A stretch of 64,000 nucleotides of DNA from Penicillium oxalicum (Eukaryota > Ascomycota > Eurotiomycetes > Eurotiales > Aspergillaceae), in contig NC_064650.1 in assembly GCF_001723175.1 (NCBI RefSeq), forward strand, positions 3,224,001 to 3,288,000, read 5' to 3'. Below, piece by piece: positions 33,439-45,631 of the stretch. The translations under genes and the position numbers were made by a program. The notes under the pieces are model-generated. The model saw only the letters and a list, made by a program, of their open reading frames with translations, searched no databases and was not told the origin of the DNA. Position 1 is the first letter of the stretch. Each line of letters begins with the position of its first letter.

Positions 33439-36105
33439 CTATGACGGAAGGTTCCAAATGAAATCTAGCCCCCCACTTTCGTACATTGGAAATTGAACAT
33501 TGTTGTTCATGCTAAACGGCGCCATCGAAGGATCAAATGGCAAAGACAGCCAGTCATCTGCCATATCGTTCAGAGATGGCATAAAGCCCATATCAGAGGT
33601 CAAAGTTTGCGGCGCAGTAGCATTGACCGTGCTCGGTCGTTCGCCATTTTCGGGCCAAGCTGGTGGCCCCATTGAGGATCGACGCGTGGTATCGCGGCTA
33701 TTCTGGGCACTTGAGTTGTGGTTTCTAGTGACTCTCGAGGAAGCAAGAAGATTCCGACGCAGGCGGGACACGTGCATCTCCAAAAGCGTCGCATAGCGAG
33801 TGCTGAGATGCACGTCATCAAGCGCATTGGATTTCAGAGCACTGATGCTTTTCTCGAGGACTTCAAGGGACTCTCGCAGCGTCCCTTGTCGAGTGCCAAG
33901 ACTGAGAGCCTTCATCAAGAATATCGAGGCGCTCGTGATTCGAAGGACGATGCGCACGGGGGAGAACCGCAGGGCTCCCACTTCTGCAAGATTTGTGACC
34001 TTCTGCAGAATCTGGCAGCACCCGTCAATCACTTCCTGGATGTAGTCGTAGTCTGTCGGGTCAATGGTCATGGGGCGGACATCGTCAAGATTGTTTAGAT
34101 CGGCATCCGCCACAGCCCGCTCCACGACGGCTTGCATGCCAACAGAGTGGGTGTATACCCGAACAAAGTGGTATTCGATAAAGAGGTCATTATAAAAGGC
34201 GGTGTCGAGATTGCTTGGGTGAAGATATTTGTCTTTCCATTGATTGAGCAGGGGCCGGAAATGCTCGAGCAGGCCGACGTAGCGACCACTGTGGAGTTGC
34301 TGACGGGCAAATTTGGCCGAGGGGAAGAACATGTCGGTGACTGATTGTGCCAACTTGGTGAGCTCAATCCACGAATCCATAAACACCAGCCATGTACTTC
34401 CGGGCTGACTCAACCCGCGTGGCTTGCGCCCTCCCAGGACTGCGTGGTTGAGTGACTGCGGTATGGGTGACATGCAACCAATGCGCCAAGCTAGCTGATT
34501 GATATACACGTAGAGAAGTCGTTGGACTCTCTGTCGTCGGAGCCTAATCTGCTCTTTCCATTGCTGGTCGTCGGTGTATGGATCACTCTCTTCTGTCTCA
34601 AACAGGCCGAGCTCATGGGCTAGTGAAAGCGCACATCCAAGCAGCATCCACGACATTTGATCAGACCTTCGCGACGGTTCAACCATGTCCTCGATCCATC
34701 GACTTTCTGTTGTTTCCCTCCTGTCGGAGACTTCAGAAGGATTCGGATCAGTCGATATTAAGTCATCATCCCAGCCGTCCGCCTCGGGTGGAAAATGGAG
34801 GGAGCGCGGATGCCACTCTGCCATGAGCAAGAGGGCCTCGACTGTCCCGAGACTCCTGATCTTGGATTTGGTGGACTTTTCTTGGCCGAAAATAAGCCTT
34901 GTTGTCAGCTGCTGACAATATTGCCACAGACGATGATGGATAAAAAAGTTCCTCGACTCTCCACTTGCGCCAGGTAGAATGTGATAGCGAGAGGATATCA
35001 TTAGAATGGTAGAGCACAGAACAGGCTCGCGTGAGATCAGCGAGAAGTGGTTCTGGTGATTGGCGTAGAAGTCGGTCAAGATGGGCGACAGACAGGACAT
35101 GTTCTTATAGAATCTGTCATTCGATATATCAGCCAGCAGTTCCCACCCTGGGTCGCTCATCCGATGAGATGATTGCAGATGATGGACTTACAAGTCGACA
35201 AAAGTCACTGCTTCTCTTGCAGAGAACCACCCCATTTTAACAAAGCGACATGCCCCCCATGTGCGCAAAGTTTCAGCTGATGCCTCTGACAGCTCGACTG
35301 AATGTTTCACACGGGGAAATGACTCCAAAGCAGCCGGACTCTCAAAGCTCTTGGGGGTAGCGTGCAGGTGTCCGTTAGAACCGCCCACTTTGCTGTCTGC
35401 CCCTTGAGATGGACTCTCGTCGCTAGGCGCATTGTCCTCCTGGCCGGCAGTTGCCGCCTCAAAGAGTATGTTTAAAGCATCGTTTCCACTCGCGACAACC
35501 GTTCGCATCATGGAGTTCGCCAAGGTCGACCCGGAGCGGTGGCGATTATCTTGGTATGCATTGGTTGAGGCCGAATTGGCGGGTACCGAGCCATCTGCAA
35601 TTGACTGAGGACTGATTCCCACTTGAGGACTATGCGCGTTGTGTGGTGACTGCTGAGACCGTGCGAATCCCCAGCTATGCTGGAAGGGACTCGTCGAGTC
35701 CTGGCCATATTGAACAGGTCGATGCGCTTGCGAGAATTGGCCGCCCGCCTGGTCAGCGACGGCGTTTGTGCTCTGGTAGTGACGCTCGTTCGGCGATATC
35801 TCGTGATCGTTGTCTTCGGAAGATCGTCCTAGACCAAGTCGATTAGACTAAAAATTGCCCGACGCGGACTACACTGCGTCGATCGACCTCGACTTACCGC
35901 GCTTGCGCGACCTCTCCCAAGCGCGCTTCTCAGGGAAGACGCACTCTCTCATCTCTCTGCGACATCGCGCACATGGTGGGCCGATCGGTAAGCCGTCCGG
36001 ACCCGTCCCTAGATCGCACTTTGCCTTGCGTTGCCGACAAGGAATACATGCCTTGTAGGTGCGCTGATACGGACGGTCGGGACGGGATGGCCTGGCCCCA
36101 TCCAT
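33439..36105 (-). CDS. hmgR: Zn2Cys6 transcription factor, probable regulator of tyrosine degradation (HmgR)
   Basis: Three exons: 35898-36105, 35192-35828 and 33439-35113. Introns are 35829-35897 and 35114-35191. Product about 839 aa from ATG 36105. The N-terminus holds the binuclear cluster with Cys at residues 20, 23, 30, 45, 48 and 55, an unusually long 14-residue loop between the third and fourth Cys ([13 protein letters not shown]). A basic stretch, [10 protein letters not shown], follows. A fungal_trans-like region starts near [33 protein letters not shown] and extends over most of exon 3; the C-terminus is low-complexity. The cluster type resembles Aro80/TamA-like regulators. The symbol rests on synteny: in Aspergillus fumigatus the Zn2Cys6 gene beside maiA-fahA-hmgA-hmgX-hppD is hmgR, needed for induction of that cluster. 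DNA binding to the promoter element described at 37734, 40500 and 43880 is inference. Confidence 0.88.
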
Positions 36106-37029
36106 TGTCACCCACACACTCTTGCAAAGTAGACGACAATCTCAGCCCGGGTGAATCAGGCAATGCCGACTAGCAATGGCAATTTCTTCGGGGTGGGTAT
36201 CTGGCATGAGGAAGTGGATGCGTGAACTGATGGGAGCTCAAAGGCGAGCAAAAAGGCAGGTGGAGAATGCCGCTTCTACCCGGGCGAGGGGCGGGAGACC
36301 GAGGGAGCATCTCGTCCACCCTTAATCAGGTAGTGGATGGGCTGGTGGGAGACTGTTGAAAGTGTGAGTGTGGACAGACTTTTGATTAACAAGAACTGGC
36401 CCACGTGTACTGATTTGGGACGACTTTCTTTCTTTTCTCTCTTCCATCTGAGACTCCCCTTCGAACTAAAAGAGAGGGAAGTTCAGTCGAGGTGAAACCC
36501 CAGTCGCTATTTCTTTTGGAAGCAGCTGCAGGGCGCTTCCGCGGCTCAATCTAGCTGCTGCAGCTGCAACGTCATTTTACATCAGGCCGAATGAGAAAGA
36601 TGCCTCACTGCCTGATGAAATAGGCTAAATGAAAGGTCAATCACCTCTGTTATAACGATTACGCCCTCTGTTATGGATAAGAATGGAGATATATCTAGTG
36701 CTTCGCCTCGTAAAACCAATCTTACTATCTGGAACCGCACATGGACCCTTTGATTGTCTTATCCACCCGCCTAGAAGATGATATCATCCGAGTTCCAGTG
36801 TTGAAATATGCCGGTAGTAGAATGGAATGCTTCAATTCGTATGTTCCTCCAGGCAGCGCCTTTCTGGACGAAAGACTTGCATGCCCTTTCAGGCTCAGAC
36901 ACCAGCTCAAGTAGGAGTTGAATACGCGGGAAATTCTTCATGAATAAATTTTGCCTAATGCCATCCACTGAAAAACGGTCCACCAGATCGAACTTTGTCT
37001 ATGAACTATTTGATAGCAGCAGATTGCGG

Positions 37030-37245
37030 CTAGGCTGATGGATGGGCATTTGGGACAGGTCCCAACGCGACTGCCTGCGCGTTGATTAGATATTGCACCT
37101 TAGCTCGTCGTCCATCTGCCCAGATAGTCGTGTAGAACCCTAAGTTGTCAACATCAATGGAAGTATGATACCTCCGGACGAGGTCAGGCTGACTATGTGG
37201 CTGCAGCGCGTCCGGTATACCTCCAATTGCGCACGGCTTGGTCAT
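37030..37245 (-). other. Unassigned small open frame (71 aa), doubtful gene or relic
   Basis: An ATG at 37245 opens a 71-codon frame with well-mixed composition (YHTSIDVDNLGFYTTIWADG). About 50 bp downstream a second frame continues to 36771 (SVDGIRQNLFMKNFPRI). Both look less random than other intergenic frames, but I found no convincing intron to join them and recognise no family. It could be a decayed gene or chance. Confidence 0.15.
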
Positions 37246-37733
37246 GTCCAAATCCTATCTATGACATGTATATATTATGTCAATCGCCCGAAGGGGTACC
37301 GATAACCGGGACATAGGTAGATTTGGTAGAAGATAGATCTAATCAGAGAAAGCATTAGACATGGAAGCAAAAATCTGAATGAATGCTGGAGGAAGAAAGA
37401 TACAAAACCGGACCAGGGGCATGATAATATTTTTTTTAGGAAATAGCCGTATTCCTCAAAGATCTTTGGTTTAATGTTCGTTCCGGGGTAAGATGTGTGA
37501 TTGTACTGAGTGTATTTCTTCCAACCTCCGATTCTCCAAGTATACAGACGTACACTCGTGGCTTTGACTTGGCGATCTCACAGAATATCAATGCTTCTTG
37601 GTTTTTGATTTTGGTTGGTCGGCATGGAAGTGTCAATATCCTGATCTTTCCTCCGTCGTGTGTCCTCCCCAAGTTGCGGTGTTGAGCCGGTTCTTGTCCC
37701 AGCGCCGACGGAAAGCGGCGGCCGAATTAGCAC

Positions 37734-37752
37734 GAAACAGCGGAATTTCCGC
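37734..37752 (-). promoter_or_regulatory. Candidate cluster operator, maiA copy
   Basis: In maiA sense the site reads GAAACAGCGGAATTTCCGC. It aligns, with two one-base gaps, to the elements in the fahA/hmgA and hmgX/hppD promoters. Its near edge to the maiA ATG is 244 bp, against 246 and 249 bp for fahA and hmgX, in the same orientation relative to the gene. It also forms a CGG-N5-CCG-type palindrome, a plausible zinc-cluster half-site pair. Confidence 0.45.
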
Positions 37753-37995
37753 GCATTCGCCAGTTGAACAGCTCAGGACGGTTTTTTGCTGCTGCATACC
37801 ACCGCATCGCGGAGACCAGAAGGCCCGTGGTAGTGAATTTGCTTATAATGAATGTAGCAGGTGATACGTTGACAGGCATAGACGGGAGCTGGGACTTATA
37901 GCTGCAGGATTCCTCTGGGACTAGGCGCATTCAATATCATCCATTCCATTTCAACCCCTCCATCTGGCATTCCCAACAACCGTTCAAGGACAATC

Positions 37996-38676
37996 ATGTC
38001 GGACACTCAAGTCACGCTCTATACATACTTTCGTTCCTCCTGCTCCGCCCGTCTACGCATTGCCCTGTATCTGAAGGAGATCCCCTTCAAGCCTATATTC
38101 GTCAATCTTCTCCGCGACGAGCAATCAACCCCTTCTCATCGCTCTATCAACCCGTCCGGCACTGTTCCAGCCCTCGTTGTCCAACGCCCAGGCCCTGAGC
38201 AGCACCCAGTCATACTCACCCAATCCCTCGCAGCGCTTGAATACCTGGATGAGACATTCCCCGATCAAGGACCCAAGCTCCTCCCGTCGGATCCAGAAAC
38301 CCGTGCTCTCGTCCGGACTCTGGCTCAAATCATCGGTTGTGATGTCCAACCCGTCACGAACCTTCGAATCCTCAAGCGCGTAGCTCCTTTTGGTGCAGAC
38401 CGAACTGTCTGGTCCAAGGACCTGATTGAAGATGGATTCCGTGCGTACGAAGCGCTCGTGTCCAGCTCGGCGGGGAAGTTTAGCGTGGGAGACCAGATCA
38501 CCATGGCGGATCTTTGTCTGATTCCCGCTGTCTGGGGTGCGGAGAGAGTGGGTATGGATATGAGTACTTTCCCCGTGATTCAAAAGATTGCAAAGAATCT
38601 GGAGATGGAGGAAGCTGTGCAGAAAGGGCATTGGCAGACACAGCCGGATACGCCTGAAGATCTGCGGGCCAAGTAG
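37996..38676 (+). CDS. maiA: Maleylacetoacetate isomerase (zeta-class GST)
   Basis: Single exon, 226 aa from ATG 37996. The N-terminal thioredoxin-like domain carries the zeta-class motif SSCSARLRIALYLK with Ser14-Ser15-Cys16 intact for glutathione activation; the usual bulky residue after the second Ser is Ala here. NPSGTVPALV holds the cis-Pro loop and TQSLAALEYLDETFP the glutathione-binding helix. The C-terminal all-helical domain contains FSVGDQITMADLCLIPAVWGAERVGMD. The enzyme isomerises maleylacetoacetate to fumarylacetoacetate using glutathione, the third step after homogentisate formation (HmgA then MaiA). It converges with fahA (about 290 bp between stops) and is divergent from hmgR. 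A candidate operator lies 244 bp upstream. Confidence 0.95.
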   Translation: MSDTQVTLYTYFRSSCSARLRIALYLKEIPFKPIFVNLLRDEQSTPSHRSINPSGTVPALVVQRPGPEQHPVILTQSLAALEYLDETFPDQGPKLLPSDPETRALVRTLAQIIGCDVQPVTNLRILKRVAPFGADRTVWSKDLIEDGFRAYEALVSSSAGKFSVGDQITMADLCLIPAVWGAERVGMDMSTFPVIQKIAKNLEMEEAVQKGHWQTQPDTPEDLRAK

Positions 38677-38968
38677 ATCCTCTCTCGCAGCTTTACCTTG
38701 ATTTAAGTGACTGCGGCGAATCTACTGTCGAAAATTTGAGACTGGAGCAGGTCCTACCTACCAGTCGCCTATGTCTCTACCTCCGAGGAATATTATTTGA
38801 GCTGGACGAGGAAGAGGATTCGTGTCATTCTCAACTGTCATGTATCATCAATATGTGTGTGTGGTGTCATTCGCAAATGTCTTTGTAAAGCCAACAACAA
38901 AGCATTTTCTAGTTCACTTGATATATAATTCTGTCTCTCCAGATTTTTTGAGGGTGTAGCGTTCTGTT

Positions 38969-40254
38969 CTAGAGAGACAGAGCGGGAAGAATGGTACCAA
39001 CGCAGTCACCAAAGCCGACAAAGTTGCCTTCCGTGCCCGCCATACCACGCAAGACCACGGTATCGCCGTCTTCAAGGAACATTCGCTCTGTCCCATCCGC
39101 TAGCTTGAGCGGCTTCTTACCATTAGTCTGCTCCAGCAGACTGCCCTGGGTGTGGGGCTCTTTGCCGGAAATGGTTCCTGAGCCGAGCAAGTCGCCGGTC
39201 CTCAGGTTACAACCCGTGATTGTGTGATGTGCGACCATCTGCGGGAAAGAGTAAAGCAAGTTACGAGAGCTGGTGTTGGATATGATACTGGGTTGGCCAC
39301 CCTTGTTGGTGATTTCCACCTCGAGCGGGATGTCGTAGACGTTCTCGGCGCGCTTCTCACGGAGGTAAGGAAGCAGAGACTCGCGGTTCTCTGGCTCCAA
39401 GCCTTGGGTACGGAAAGGCTCGAGAGCATCGAGCATGACTACCCAAGGGGTGATCGAGGTGCCAAAGTTCTTGGCGTTGAACGGACCCAGAGGCACGTAC
39501 TCCCAAGCTTGAATGTCACGAGCAGACCAGTCATTCATCAAAACAAGACCGAAGATGTGATCTTCCGCCTCTTCAACCGAGACAGGCTTGCCCAGATCAT
39601 TGGGCTTGCTGATGAAGCAAGCCAATTCCAGTTCAATATCCAGCCTCTTGCAGGGAGAGAAGGTGGGAATCTTGGGATCTGCGGTAGGATTGGCTAGGAT
39701 TTGACCGTTGGGACGGTGCAAATCAGTTCCAGAGGGAACCACAGAGGAAGCACGACCATGGTAAGCCACGGGAGGTGCTTGTAGTTGGGCTGCAGAGCAT
39801 TATCCGGGCCTCGGAAAAGCACGCCCACGTTATAGGCGTGATTTAACCCAGCGTAGAAATCTGTGTAATCGCCAATCTGCATGGGAAGGTGGTTGGTGAC
39901 CTGGGACAACGGCACGAGTGCGGACTTTTGCAGCTCGGCATTATCCTTGAGCACTTGAGGATATTGGGTCTCGACACGGAAGACGTTTTGCAAATATTCC
40001 CGTACTTGGCGATGCACTGGACGGCCCAGGGCCGCGAATGCGTTGAGCGTGGGCTCATTGAAGACGTTCAAGTGTTTTTGAATCGCGGACAGCTGCGAGA
40101 AACCTCCAGACGACGCAAAGAGGCTCAGATTCAAAGCATGGTCACCAATGGCAATAGCCGGGACGCGCGAAGCGGACTGTGAAGAGATGATGCCAAATGG
40201 GATATTGGCCAAAGAGAAGGGGGAGTTCTTTGGGATGGGGAACCAGGAAGCCAT
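38969..40254 (-). CDS. fahA: Fumarylacetoacetase, with apparent one-base deletion
   Basis: Without introns the gene spans 38969-40254 and would encode about 428 aa, but the frame breaks at 39770-39772. The first part (MASWFPIPKNSPFSLANIPFG to NYKHLP) runs from ATG 40254. The rest (VAYHGRASSVVPSG to the stop at 38969) continues in another frame, exactly contiguous with the family sequence NYKHLP-VAYHGRASS. The sequence has CTCCCGTGG where CTC CCN GTG G is needed, so one base (most simply one C of a C-run) is missing. No intron fits there. As written, translation would end after about 186 aa. Family residues are otherwise intact, including YHGRASS, the metal-site region LDIELELACFISKPNDLG, and LVLMNDWSARDIQAWEYVPLGPFNAKNFGTSITPW. 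The enzyme splits fumarylacetoacetate to fumarate and acetoacetate, the last pathway step. Confidence 0.9.
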
Positions 40255-40855
40255 GATGATGCTAATGGTAGCTGTGATCCACAACTATCTGAATCGCAAG
40301 AAGTGTAAAGAGGAGATGTCAGATCCAGAAAAGAAAACACCTGTGCAGAAAGCCTCCGGTGGCCGACTTAAACATGTGAGTCCACGCGCACCCAAGCAAT
40401 CCGCACCTGAAGCAACGCGGAATTGGTCCCGTCCCTCGAGGCCTACCCCGCGTCCAAGCGGCCCCGACTGGTTGTCCCACTGCGGAACTGCCGAGCGGGA
40501 TAATCGCGGATGTTCCACTCAGAAGCACCACAGATGACGTGGGGCTCGCAAGCTTTGAGCCGAACTGCGGGACCGGAAGGGACTGGCTCGACGGAGTAAC
40601 AGTGGAGAGAGTCACCGATCGTACTTTTTGTGCTAGAATAGTACTTGGTCTGTGGGTAGCTACCAGTCCACCAGTAGTAGTGCAATCGAGGAACACAGCG
40701 CCGGCACTCCCCCCACAGCACCGCGGTGATTGAAGCCGTGCGCGCGTCAATTCCGAGGCTTGATAAGGCCGTAGATCGCCAAAGCTGACTGGGAGTCATC
40801 CTTTACTGTTCTTTCTCTTCCCATTTTCACACGAGACGTACATCGACCGCTCACC
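40255..40855. promoter_or_regulatory. fahA-hmgA divergent promoter
   Basis: A 601-bp region between divergent starts. It contains the shared element at 40500-40516, preceded by a CGG-N5-CCG inverted repeat (40483-40493). A related sequence, CCGAACTGCGGGACCGG, lies further on, near 40560. The hmgA proximal leader is pyrimidine-rich (40800-40830). Confidence 0.6.
40500..40516 (+). promoter_or_regulatory. Candidate cluster operator, fahA/hmgA copy
   Basis: ATAATCGCGGATGTTCC on the plus strand matches 43880-43896 at 14 of 17 positions (pattern ATAATNNCGGNTGTTCC). It ends 340 bp before the hmgA ATG and begins 246 bp from the fahA ATG. Confidence 0.5.
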
Positions 40856-42413
40856 ATGCCTGTGACGGAATTCTCGCATCCAGATCCATACACCTACCAG
40901 GTCGGATTCGACTCCTATCATGAGTATGTTATTGGCCGTGGTAACACGTTTTAGCGACCACGAATCCCGCTGATCAGATTCCCGTAGATCCGAAGCTGTC
41001 AAGGGAGCTCTCCCAGTAGCCCAAAATTCACCCCAAAAGGCTCCTTATGGCTTGTACGCTGAAAAGCTGTCTGGAACAGCCTTCACCGCACCACGACACG
41101 AGAACAAACAGACTTGGGTTTATCGAATCATTCCCCGCGGCGCATGGCAACTTCGCGCGGAAGATGCCGACTCTTATCACACGCGCCTGACCACTGAGAC
41201 GCAAAGACTACACCACATTCCCAACCAACTACGATGGGATCCCTTTGACTTTGACGAAACGGTGGACTGGGTCCACGGCTTGCATCTCATTGCAGGCTCG
41301 GGTGATCCTACCTTGAAGCAAGGATTGGGAATTCTCCTCTACGCGGCTGGAAAGGACATGGGCAAAGAAGCTTTCTACTCCGCAGACGGAGATTTCTTGA
41401 TCGTCGCCCAGCACGGTGTGCTGGATATTCAAACGGAACTAGGACGCATGATCGTTCGTCCCAATGAGATTGCTGTCATTCCTCGTGGTATCCGGTAGGT
41501 CGTCTTAGTTGTCCAAATTTGTCATTTTCTTTTCCGTTGCGTGAGTCCGAATTGCTGACAAGGATAAACAGTTACCGTGTCACGCTGCCCGCTGGTCCTG
41601 TACGAGGCTACATCTGCGAGCTTTACCAAGGCCACTACCAGCTCCCCGAGCTGGGTCCTATCGGATCCAATGGTCTGGCTAATGCTCGTGACTTCCAGGC
41701 CCCTGTGGCGTTCTTTGAAGATGAGGAAGAGCCCACGGAATACAAACTGTACAGCAAATTCAACAATACTCTCTTTGCAGCACGTCAGGACCACTCCCCT
41801 TTTGACATCGTCGCTTGGCATGGCAACTACTACCCTTACAAGTACGACCTGGGGCGATTCAACACCATTGGAACAGTATCGCACGATCATCCCGATCCCT
41901 CAATTTTTACCGTTCTCACTGGCCCGTCCGACCATGTGGGCACTGCTATCGCTGACTTTGTCATCTTCCCTCCCCGTTGGCTCGTGGCCGAAAACACCTT
42001 CCGCCCACCATGGTACCACCGCAACACCATGTCTGAATTCATGGGTTTGATTTGTGGCGGCTATGATGCAAAGACCGGAGGCGGCTTCCAGCCTGGGGGT
42101 GCCAGTCTTCATAATGTGATGAGTGCCCATGGCCCCGACTCGGATGCATTTGAGGGCGCCAGTAATGCCGAGCTCAAGCCAAACAAGGTTGGGGAGAACA
42201 GCATGGCGTTCATGTTTGAAAGGTGAGGACCAACAATGGACTACTTTGATACTGGTCGAGCCAATCACTAACACACTACTTTTTTCTAGTTCCCTCATGG
42301 TTGGAGTCTCAGAATGGGGATTAAAGACGTGTCACAAGGTTCAAGAACAGTACAACCAGCACAGCTGGGAACCTCTGAAGCGTCATTTCAAGAATCCCAA
42401 CAAGGCTTCTTGA
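40856..42413 (+). CDS. hmgA: Homogentisate 1,2-dioxygenase
   Basis: Four exons: 40856-40923, 40988-41494, 41572-42222 and 42290-42413, giving 449 aa, the size of Aspergillus HmgA. Introns are 40924-40987, 41495-41571 and 42223-42289. The cupin core is recognisable: [29 protein letters not shown], then [22 protein letters not shown] and [12 protein letters not shown]. The catalytic iron ligands correspond to His and Glu in [14 protein letters not shown] and the His in [19 protein letters not shown] is the conserved segment upstream. It opens the aromatic ring of homogentisate with O2 to give 4-maleylacetoacetate. Its loss in fungi lets homogentisate oxidise to pyomelanin. It shares a promoter with fahA and converges with hmgX. 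Confidence 0.97.
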
Positions 42414-42845
42414 TATGCGTATCGCATAAAATCACAAACTATCAGTTAGCGCAGACATACATACTCGATGCAGTTCCAATAATCTTCATCTAGCGTTCCC
42501 AAGCTCCCCCTTGCATCTAGCGTTCTACTTGAAAGGCGTGGATTAGTAGTCGGTTTTGCAAGTCTGTAGGCTTCCCGCGTGATCTTCTCGATGTCCGGCG
42601 ATTTAATAACGCGGAAACTGTCCAGACACTATGTACGATAGTCTTTCCACTGGCCTGGTACTACTAGCGACCTTGAAACTGAACTCCATTCACGCACATA
42701 TGAATGTATGACTGAGCCGGCGCCACTGGATACCTAATGTGTATGATGCAAGGTTGCTATTGTCACAGTGGAAATTGGGCTGTGTGTTCAACTTTATATT
42801 CTATACAACATCGGAGTTTATAGTCACACTTCAATGACCCAAGCA
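42414..42845. other. Intergenic between convergent hmgA and hmgX
   Basis: 432 bp between two stop codons. It holds 3' UTR-type sequence; I see no further gene or repeat. Confidence 0.4.
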
Positions 42846-43631
42846 TCATGCACCACCCTCGATCTCCTTTCTTATCGCCTCCTTCACAATGGCGCCACAC
42901 ATTTTCGCATACGGATTCGTCTGCACAGCCAATTGCTGAGCCACTTTGTTTCCGTACCGTCCCCCCAAGAAGAAATCCCGACTCGCCATCTCCTCCAACC
43001 GATCCGCGCTGTATTCACGCAGCCGCTCCGGGCCAAGAGCATCCGCTTCTGGCTGTGTACGAGTCTGCTTCACCCGCGCCATTTTCAACAGCAGATACCC
43101 ACGATGTGTGTGTGCATCGGCCAGTAGGCGTGCCTGAACAGGTGAGACCGGATCCGCCGGCGATGCGGGAGTTGCCAATGTGATGGCCTTTCCAAGATCC
43201 ACGAAAACACGAGATGAAATCTCGGCGGCCGCCGGAGTGAATAAAGACTCGTCGGGACTTGATTCGGTGGCATCCGGGTGTTCCTGGGTATATTGGAGAT
43301 CGGCCAGGAGACGCAGTGTTTGTGCGCGATTGGTGTATGCAGGAGGGTACGATGGGTGCTGGTCCACGAGTTTGCTCAGTTCAGAAAGAGCTGATCGAAC
43401 AGTGGCCTCGTCTGGATTTTCGGTGGTTTGAAGCTCGCGGATGATTTGTGTCTCACGGGATTTGAGGACGTTGAGGTCAGCGGGAGAGATATCCACTGTT
43501 GCTGGCCATGAAGGTATTGATGGGCTGACTGTGATGCCTGATGAAGGGGAAGATTCGGCGTCAAACAGTGCCTGGAGGACCGCGGAGTCATTCTTCGTCA
43601 AAGAAGGACGGGCATCGGATATGGTCGTCAT
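42846..43631 (-). CDS. hmgX: HmgX, TPR accessory protein of tyrosine degradation (TTC36-like)
   Basis: Single exon, 261 aa from ATG 43631. The N-terminus is disordered. From about residue 60 there are tetratricopeptide-like helix pairs: RSALSELSKLVDQHPSYPPAYTNRAQTLRLL, then ARLLADAHTHRGYLLLKMAR. The C-terminus has ASRDFFLGGRYGNKVAQQLAVQTNPYAKMCGAIVKEAI. The tail ending in NPYAxxC after a helix resembles vertebrate TTC36. The symbol follows its place between hmgA and hppD, as in A. fumigatus, where hmgX deletion blocks tyrosine catabolism although no enzyme activity was assigned. TTC36 is reported to protect hydroxyphenylpyruvate dioxygenase from degradation, and hppD is the divergent neighbour here, so HmgX may be an HppD partner or chaperone (inference). 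It shares the 610-bp promoter with hppD. Confidence 0.9.
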   Translation of the reverse strand: MTTISDARPSLTKNDSAVLQALFDAESSPSSGITVSPSIPSWPATVDISPADLNVLKSRETQIIRELQTTENPDEATVRSALSELSKLVDQHPSYPPAYTNRAQTLRLLADLQYTQEHPDATESSPDESLFTPAAAEISSRVFVDLGKAITLATPASPADPVSPVQARLLADAHTHRGYLLLKMARVKQTRTQPEADALGPERLREYSADRLEEMASRDFFLGGRYGNKVAQQLAVQTNPYAKMCGAIVKEAIRKEIEGGA

Positions 43632-44241
43632 GCTGGTGAGTAGCTTGGAAGTTGATGAGATCTCGGAACAGAGTCAATGAAGTGAGCGACCAGCACGGCA
43701 CAGAGGGGTAATGAAAATTAAATTAGACAAATGGAAAAGATGAGAAGATCCACCACAAACAAGATTAGAAATGAAGCATCAAAAAAAGAGCAAGTCGGAA
43801 AACATCATGACCAAATTAAGTTGAAGCCGAGCCCGAGCGCGCGTCTCCATGCGGCGTCACTCGGCCCGGTTGTTGGCGGATAATTCCGGCTGTTCCAGGA
43901 AGTGAACCGAAACCCTCACGACTTCCGGATGGCACCTACCAAGAAACGGTGCCGATGATGATGATTGCTGCTTTGAAAGATATCCGCCGCGGTTAATAGA
44001 GGGAGAACGGTGATGCTTGTCGAGATGTTTGGGATATTTAGAGCGCATCTTGCATATGCAAATTTCTTTATTTTGGACCAGGATCTACACCACTTTTCAT
44101 CTCCCTCCCGACGCCACTGAACCAAACAACCTACTCCTGTCGATACTTTTACCTCTCAATTCACTCTCGAGGAAGGTAGAAAAGAAAAAAAAGGAAAAAA
44201 GACCATCACATCTATTTGCCACTACACTCAACACATTCACA
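43632..44241. promoter_or_regulatory. hmgX-hppD divergent promoter
   Basis: A 610-bp region between divergent starts, containing the shared element at 43880-43896. The hppD leader has a purine-rich, A/G-dominated tract (44177-44200) followed by CA-rich sequence just before the ATG. Confidence 0.6.
43880..43896 (+). promoter_or_regulatory. Candidate cluster operator, hmgX/hppD copy
   Basis: ATAATTCCGGCTGTTCC on the plus strand. It is preceded by CGG, so it includes CGG-N6-CCG, and further CGGs lie just upstream (43862-43868). It ends 346 bp before the hppD ATG and begins 249 bp from the hmgX ATG, nearly the same as at fahA/hmgA (340 and 246). Confidence 0.5.

Positions 44242-45631
<1,390 letters not shown>

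Follow-up and report, generated by a model that had tools for sequence, protein, structure and literature searches.

The homogentisate cluster of Penicillium oxalicum lies within a window of 64,000 nucleotides (assembly GCF_001723175.1, contig NC_064650.1, positions 3,224,001 to 3,288,000 of the forward strand), and two of its divergent promoters contain closely similar copies of a 20-bp element that is a candidate binding site for the cluster regulator HmgR. Coordinates given without a contig name refer to the window. The genes run in the order hmgR (minus strand), maiA (plus), fahA (minus), hmgA (plus), hmgX (minus), and hppD (plus), and the order hppD-hmgX-hmgA-fahA-maiA is given as conserved across Penicillium and Aspergillus in the available part of an earlier report (PMC3914699). 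Pfam models recognized maiA, encoding a maleylacetoacetate isomerase of the GST family (37996 to 38676, plus), fahA, encoding fumarylacetoacetase (38969 to 40254, minus), hmgA, encoding homogentisate 1,2-dioxygenase (40856 to 42413, plus), and, on one exon, hppD, encoding 4-hydroxyphenylpyruvate dioxygenase (HPPD; 44242 to 45631, plus). Both hmgA and hppD contain introns, and their ends were set by eye. The gene between them, hmgX (42846 to 43631, minus), had no Pfam match and takes its name from its position beside hppD and from the published cluster order; one scan of bacterial and archaeal contigs yielded no relatives of HmgX. The reading frame of fahA is broken by a frameshift near 39.77 kb, where the coding stretch (38969 to 40284, minus) is split into two overlapping frames, one carrying FAA_hydrolase_N and the other FAA_hydrolase; the frameshift may be either real or an assembly error. 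A search of the whole genome for a biopterin-dependent aromatic amino acid hydroxylase (PF00351) gave no match, and introns may hide one.

The cluster encodes a Zn2Cys6 regulator of the HmgR family, the presumed binder of the element. Its gene (33439 to 36105, minus) was assigned three inferred exons (36105 to 35898, 35828 to 35192, and 35113 to 33439) that specify a product of 839 amino acids with a Zn_clus domain scoring 28.1 bits against a cutoff of 21. The closest relatives are from Penicillium ucsense (85%) and P. brasilianum (82%). Entries from Aspergillus fumigatus were 60 to 64% identical, including a homolog in strain Af293 (64% over 80%) whose listed name starts with "Transcription factor hmg." In A. 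fumigatus, all of the cluster genes are reported to be induced by tyrosine and to be nearly silent without hmgR, and the adjacent genes are reported not to respond to tyrosine (PMC3203155). The same source states that HmgR is 40% identical to Aro80.

The sequence-only reading of this locus had paired two 17-mers, at 40500 to 40516 in the fahA/hmgA promoter and at 43880 to 43896 in the hmgX/hppD promoter, that were alike at 14 of 17 bases. The coordinates and the identity were verified, and the matching stretch proved to be 20 bp long, GGATAATNNCGGNTGTTCCA, with 17 of the 20 positions identical. The first copy (40498 to 40517, plus) reads GGATAATCGCGGATGTTCCA, or TGGAACATCCGCGATTATCC in the sense of fahA, and the second (43878 to 43897, plus) reads GGATAATTCCGGCTGTTCCA. 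When both are oriented in the sense of the fahA and hmgX genes, the element is TGGAACATCCGCGATTATCCCG before fahA and TGGAACAGCCGGAATTATCCGC before hmgX, and the consensus is GGAACA-K-CCG-NN-ATTAT-CC[C/G]. A conserved GGAACA flank is thus followed by a direct repeat of CCG-like triplets with an AT-rich spacer of seven bases between them. The second triplet falls beyond the end of the 17-mer. The hmgX/hppD copy contains an exact CGG-N7-CGG (43877 and 43887) within a larger array on the plus strand (43852 to 43889), in which CGG occurs at 43852 and 43862 (N7) and then at 43867, 43877, and 43887 (N7 and N7). In the fahA/hmgA copy, the spacing between CGG at 40496 and CGG at 40507 is N8, and the N7 position upstream reads GGG. 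The suggestion that such triplets fit a zinc cluster protein agrees with their presence in the element and with the presence of the Zn2Cys6 gene hmgR in the cluster.

The two copies occupy similar positions and share one orientation. They lie 246 bp from the fahA start codon (A of the ATG at 40254) and 249 bp from that of hmgX (43631), and 340 bp and 346 bp from those of hmgA (40856) and hppD (44242), respectively, all as previously noted. The intergenic lengths are themselves alike (601 and 610 bp), so the paired distances inside each divergent promoter are not independent. The sequence-only reading had also proposed that the element is fixed at one helical position; this is unsupported, because a start codon gives no reference for helical phase and the 3-bp and 6-bp offsets amount to about 103 and 206 degrees.

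A weaker, gapped copy precedes maiA (37734 to 37751, minus); the variant picked out in the sequence-only reading spans 37734 to 37750. Two one-base gaps are needed to align this copy, which is centered on the palindrome CGGAATTTCCG. Its orientation relative to the gene is the same as that of the fahA and hmgX copies, as had been claimed, and its distance from the maiA ATG (37996) was found to be 245 to 246 bp instead of 244 bp. The further claim that the element stands before every structural gene holds for the fahA/hmgA and hmgX/hppD promoters and extends to maiA only if this gapped, background-level copy is accepted. Searched as a pattern of its own, the maiA form occurred once exactly in the genome, at maiA itself, and six times with three mismatches; the reversed control gave one. 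Three of the six loci (L048 to L050) were compared with the cluster proteins by tblastn, and no relative was found.

The exact form of the element is confined to the cluster. Across the source assembly (30.77 Mb in 17 contigs), the 17 fixed bases of the consensus occurred exactly twice, in the two promoters described above, so in its exact form the element is not spread over unrelated promoters. No occurrence had one mismatch, 3 had two, and 48 had three, a total of 53 compared with 62 for the reversed control. Since the exact form occurs only twice and the total does not exceed that of the control, the exact copies are special and the weak copies are mostly background. A separate scan, other than the count of 17 fixed bases, gave a one-mismatch match at C7:1133784, which lies among open reading frames for sugar transporters and hydrolases; no link to the pathway was seen.

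When positions relative to the ATG were allowed to differ by no more than 5 bp, the fahA-hmgX similarity was reached in 3 of 1,500 shuffles and the maiA-hmgX similarity in 5 of 1,500; when four start codon choices were allowed, the corresponding figures were 7 of 1,500 for the pair score and 14 of 1,500 for the maiA score. Overlapping 600-bp tiles of real genomic sequence compared with the hmgX promoter reached a score of 12.5 in 5 of 1,590 cases and 12 in 7 of 1,590. The joint sum for the three promoters, again with start codon choices allowed, was 24.5, and none of the 1,500 shuffles attained it (highest, 22.5). The sequence-only reading had considered three matched distances unlikely to arise by accident. 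The results support an element that is nonrandom, unique to the cluster in its exact form, and similarly placed and oriented.

A further copy was found before a second HPPD gene that is not linked to the cluster. This copy (C1:699496-699515) has three mismatches and stands 222 bp upstream of the ATG. When the genome was searched with an HppD exon, two genes only were recovered, the cluster hppD and this paralog on C1, which is 45 to 50% identical to the HppD of the window over two longer aligned stretches; its partial open reading frame scored 227 bits against the HPPD model, below the cutoff of 277. The best alignment between the paralog and fahA promoters is the element itself, ungapped and identical at 16 of 20 positions. 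Relative to its gene, the copy has the orientation seen at fahA and hmgX, opposite to that relative to hppD, and thus was not simply inherited together with an hppD promoter. The surrounding region (C1:687001-712000) constitutes a second locus for aromatic catabolism, with genes for an MFS transporter, an FMN-dependent dehydrogenase (with a weak cytochrome b5 match), the HPPD paralog, a DOPA-dioxygenase, a class I/II aminotransferase, and a phenol hydroxylase-like protein. A simple pattern search over 25 kb surrounding this locus detected no Zn2Cys6 motif.

With 51 noncluster matches in the genome, about 0.001 would be expected to fall by chance in any one 600-bp promoter (51 × 600/30.77 Mb). 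A fairer chance figure for the paralog copy is, by our estimate, near 0.01, because neighbors were inspected for 32 of the 51 noncluster matches (28 plus 4 loci, leaving 19) and several pathway genes would have been acceptable. Pfam models were run on 10 chosen neighboring open reading frames, and the cluster proteins were compared by tblastn with 76 of 83 loci, the other seven being the cluster's own; HppD alone had relatives, and these all lay in the second locus. Two other genes, the fahA paralog (C1:348122-349000) and the closest other relative of the aminotransferase of the second locus (C1:4083610), had no match in the genome-wide scans for the element, and the 800 bp around their starts contained at best a site with 5 mismatches of 20. 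An exon search for homogentisate dioxygenase found only the hmgA gene of the cluster in the genome.

The nearest parallel among known sites is the upstream activating sequence UASaro of the Saccharomyces cerevisiae ARO9 and ARO10 genes. Aro80 is reported to bind CCG-N7-CCG (PMC12941744, PMC7947893, PMC9142190), four CCG triplets seven bases apart are described in ARO9 and ARO10 (PMC7947893, PMC9142190), and the consensus is printed as WRCCGWSATTTRCCG in PMC6461809. The P. oxalicum element resembles these sites in its directly repeated CCG triplets and seven-base AT-rich spacer, in the array of several triplets at hmgX/hppD, in the relationship of HmgR to the binder, and in the control of aromatic amino acid catabolism. 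It differs in that, within the window, both triplets stand at N7 spacing only in the hmgX/hppD copy, in the additional conserved GGAACA flank, and in its targets, which belong to the homogentisate pathway and not to the Ehrlich pathway. CCG-N7-CCG is exact at hmgX/hppD, the paralog copy reads CCG-N7-CCC, and the maiA copy has no such repeat; CCG-NN-AYTAT-CC[C/G] is common to the fahA, hmgX, and HPPD paralog copies. The triplet array by itself is not rare enough to pick targets, since CGG-N7-CGG-N7-CGG occurred at 183 places in the genome compared with 301 in the reversed control.

The clusters of closer relatives offer a second comparison. Those of A. fumigatus and Talaromyces (Penicillium) marneffei contain the same genes and the divergent hppD-hmgX promoter, and their genetic dependence on hmgR has been published; in contrast to the present case, the available portions of their reports gave no operator letters. 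In Penicillium chrysogenum, Pc12g09010 to Pc12g09040 comprise the same pathway genes with an adjoining regulator and are coinduced, whereas a MEME analysis of seven phenylacetate catabolism genes is described, in the part available, as giving no motif that passed the authors' criteria (PMC2657799).

Because this rare word is present in two promoters of the cluster and weaker copies stand before maiA and the HPPD paralog, the regulator of the cluster probably docks on it. On the strength of the sequence comparisons, we place at roughly 0.65 the probability that it is the HmgR operator and works like an Aro80 site without passing every test of one. HmgR would occupy the 20-bp element, perhaps in the constitutive manner reported for Aro80, and in the presence of tyrosine, phenylalanine, or 4-hydroxyphenylpyruvate would switch on the gene on either side of each divergent promoter, fahA and hmgA from one site and hmgX and hppD from the other. 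A degenerate site would serve maiA, and the further copy would place the distant HPPD paralog under the same control. The analysis establishes the sequence of the element, how rare it is, its distances and orientation, and which genes adjoin it; the limits of the site, like the binding by HmgR, the activation, and the control of the paralog, are predictions of this model.

A number of results weigh against this interpretation. Copies with up to two or three mismatches are not enriched over the reversed control. The best ungapped match between the fahA and hmgX promoters, in any place or orientation, was marginal (P = 0.043; 600 dinucleotide shuffles), and gapped alignments gave P values of 0.073 for fahA-hmgX and 0.17 for maiA-hmgX (300 shuffles each). 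The best gapped alignment of the maiA and fahA promoters was not the element (P = 0.79; 300 shuffles), which was again not recovered with the distance fixed. Similarities without the distance constraint were marginal or absent and would not convince by themselves. Of 43,680 dyads counted across the three promoters, none passed Bonferroni correction. The maiA copy agrees with the consensus at 7 of 17 positions, a background level when taken by itself: among the best 25 consensus matches in the window, 18 other places equal its score of 7, one of them being the best site upstream of hmgR. The divergent region between hmgR and maiA spans 1,890 bp (36106 to 37995), and no copy above background was found within 900 bp upstream of hmgR, a gene that is itself described as tyrosine induced in A. 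fumigatus (PMC3203155).

The Aro80 comparison and the outlying copies supply further points of this kind. The fahA copy fits CCG-N7-CCG only roughly, reading CCG-N7-CCC or CCG-N8-CCG. Scores against WRCCGWSATTTRCCG were 10 for fahA, 11 for hmgX, 11 for the paralog, and 9 for maiA, out of 15, and these are not above a background in which about 1.5 matches of at least 11 are expected per 1,200 strand-bases. A match of this quality to the full consensus is background; the resemblance to Aro80 sites lies in the triplets and their spacing. The paralog-fahA alignment score (10.0) is no higher than that of unrelated promoter pairs (shuffle medians, 10.5), and the best alignment of the paralog and hmgX promoters is a T-rich run instead of the element. 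The tyrosine paralogs of T. marneffei are described as not detectably expressed on tyrosine, and deletion of hpdB, a possible counterpart of the C1 paralog, as making no difference (PMC4374905, in the part available). A two-mismatch copy at C6:960212-960231, with CCG-N7-CCG and 13 of 15 matches to the Aro80 consensus, lies upstream of a bioF-like biotin gene. It is probably there by chance and has fewer mismatches than the paralog copy, so chance matches before genes do occur. The aminotransferase family reading frame at this locus was at first taken for a tyrosine aminotransferase; it proved to be bioF-like and was dropped as support. An open reading frame with an AAA_26 domain is found near the bioF-like gene.

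The element might also be a genuine shared operator of a different factor, either another zinc cluster protein or a reader of GGAACA/TGTTCC, that coregulates the pathway. The GGAACA flank lies outside the Aro80 consensus as printed in PMC6461809, and in the two exact copies it shows the same degree of conservation as the CCG triplets. Expression is reported to persist at a residual level without HmgR in A. fumigatus, and induction to be lost only in part in T. marneffei, in the portions of those reports available. However, the gene set equals the one reported as HmgR dependent in A. fumigatus, CCG-N7-CC[C/G] fits the Aro80 family, and a regulator is encoded in the cluster itself. We regard a different reader as unlikely.

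Chance similarity of promoters, selected after the fact, is somewhat more doubtful. It would accommodate the unconstrained P values of 0.04 to 0.17, the background score at maiA, the failure of any dyad to survive correction, and the lack of genome-wide enrichment of weak copies. It does not readily accommodate the joint test with fixed distances, the confinement of the exact copies to the cluster, or the additional copy upstream of the one other HPPD gene detected.

A nitrogen control site of the AreA/GATA type is most improbable. GATAA is present in both exact copies (40499 and 43879) and GATAG in the paralog copy, and AreA is reported to affect the cluster in T. marneffei (PMC4374905). HGATAR is nonetheless unmet, because G precedes GATA: both exact copies read GGATAA, and the paralog copy also misses. 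GATA is absent from the maiA copy, conservation in the element reaches far past GATAA, and the available text of PMC4374905 describes no AreA sites close to the predicted HmgR site of T. marneffei. An AmyR/InuR-type site (CGG-N8-CGG), tabulated in the accessible part of PMC12941744, can be set aside, as its spacing is matched by only one of the two exact copies (fahA/hmgA), the hmgX/hppD copy being N7, and as these regulators of starch and inulin use differ in function and would not obviously be called for in this pathway.

Returning to HmgR as the binder, its site appears not to have been described as a sequence in the searchable literature. A 2026 table enters the HmgR upstream activating sequence as N/A (PMC12941744), and a 2015 paper refers to a site predicted with RSAT, the letters of which were not found in the text available (PMC4374905); no other report of an HmgR site was identified in the searchable literature, a coverage that most subscription papers fall outside. 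The paralog copy additionally raises the possibility of an HmgR regulon that acts in trans, in which a 20-bp operator with a GGAACA flank controls both the homogentisate cluster and a second, unlinked locus; we advance this tentatively, at somewhat less than even odds.

Genetic knowledge of HmgR dates back to 2011, and a 20-bp candidate site with a predicted spacing, triplets that can be mutated, and a target outside the cluster makes its mode of action directly testable. Such a site would be relevant to pyomelanin formation, to phenylacetate losses during penicillin production, and to tyrosine-responsive fungal biosensors.

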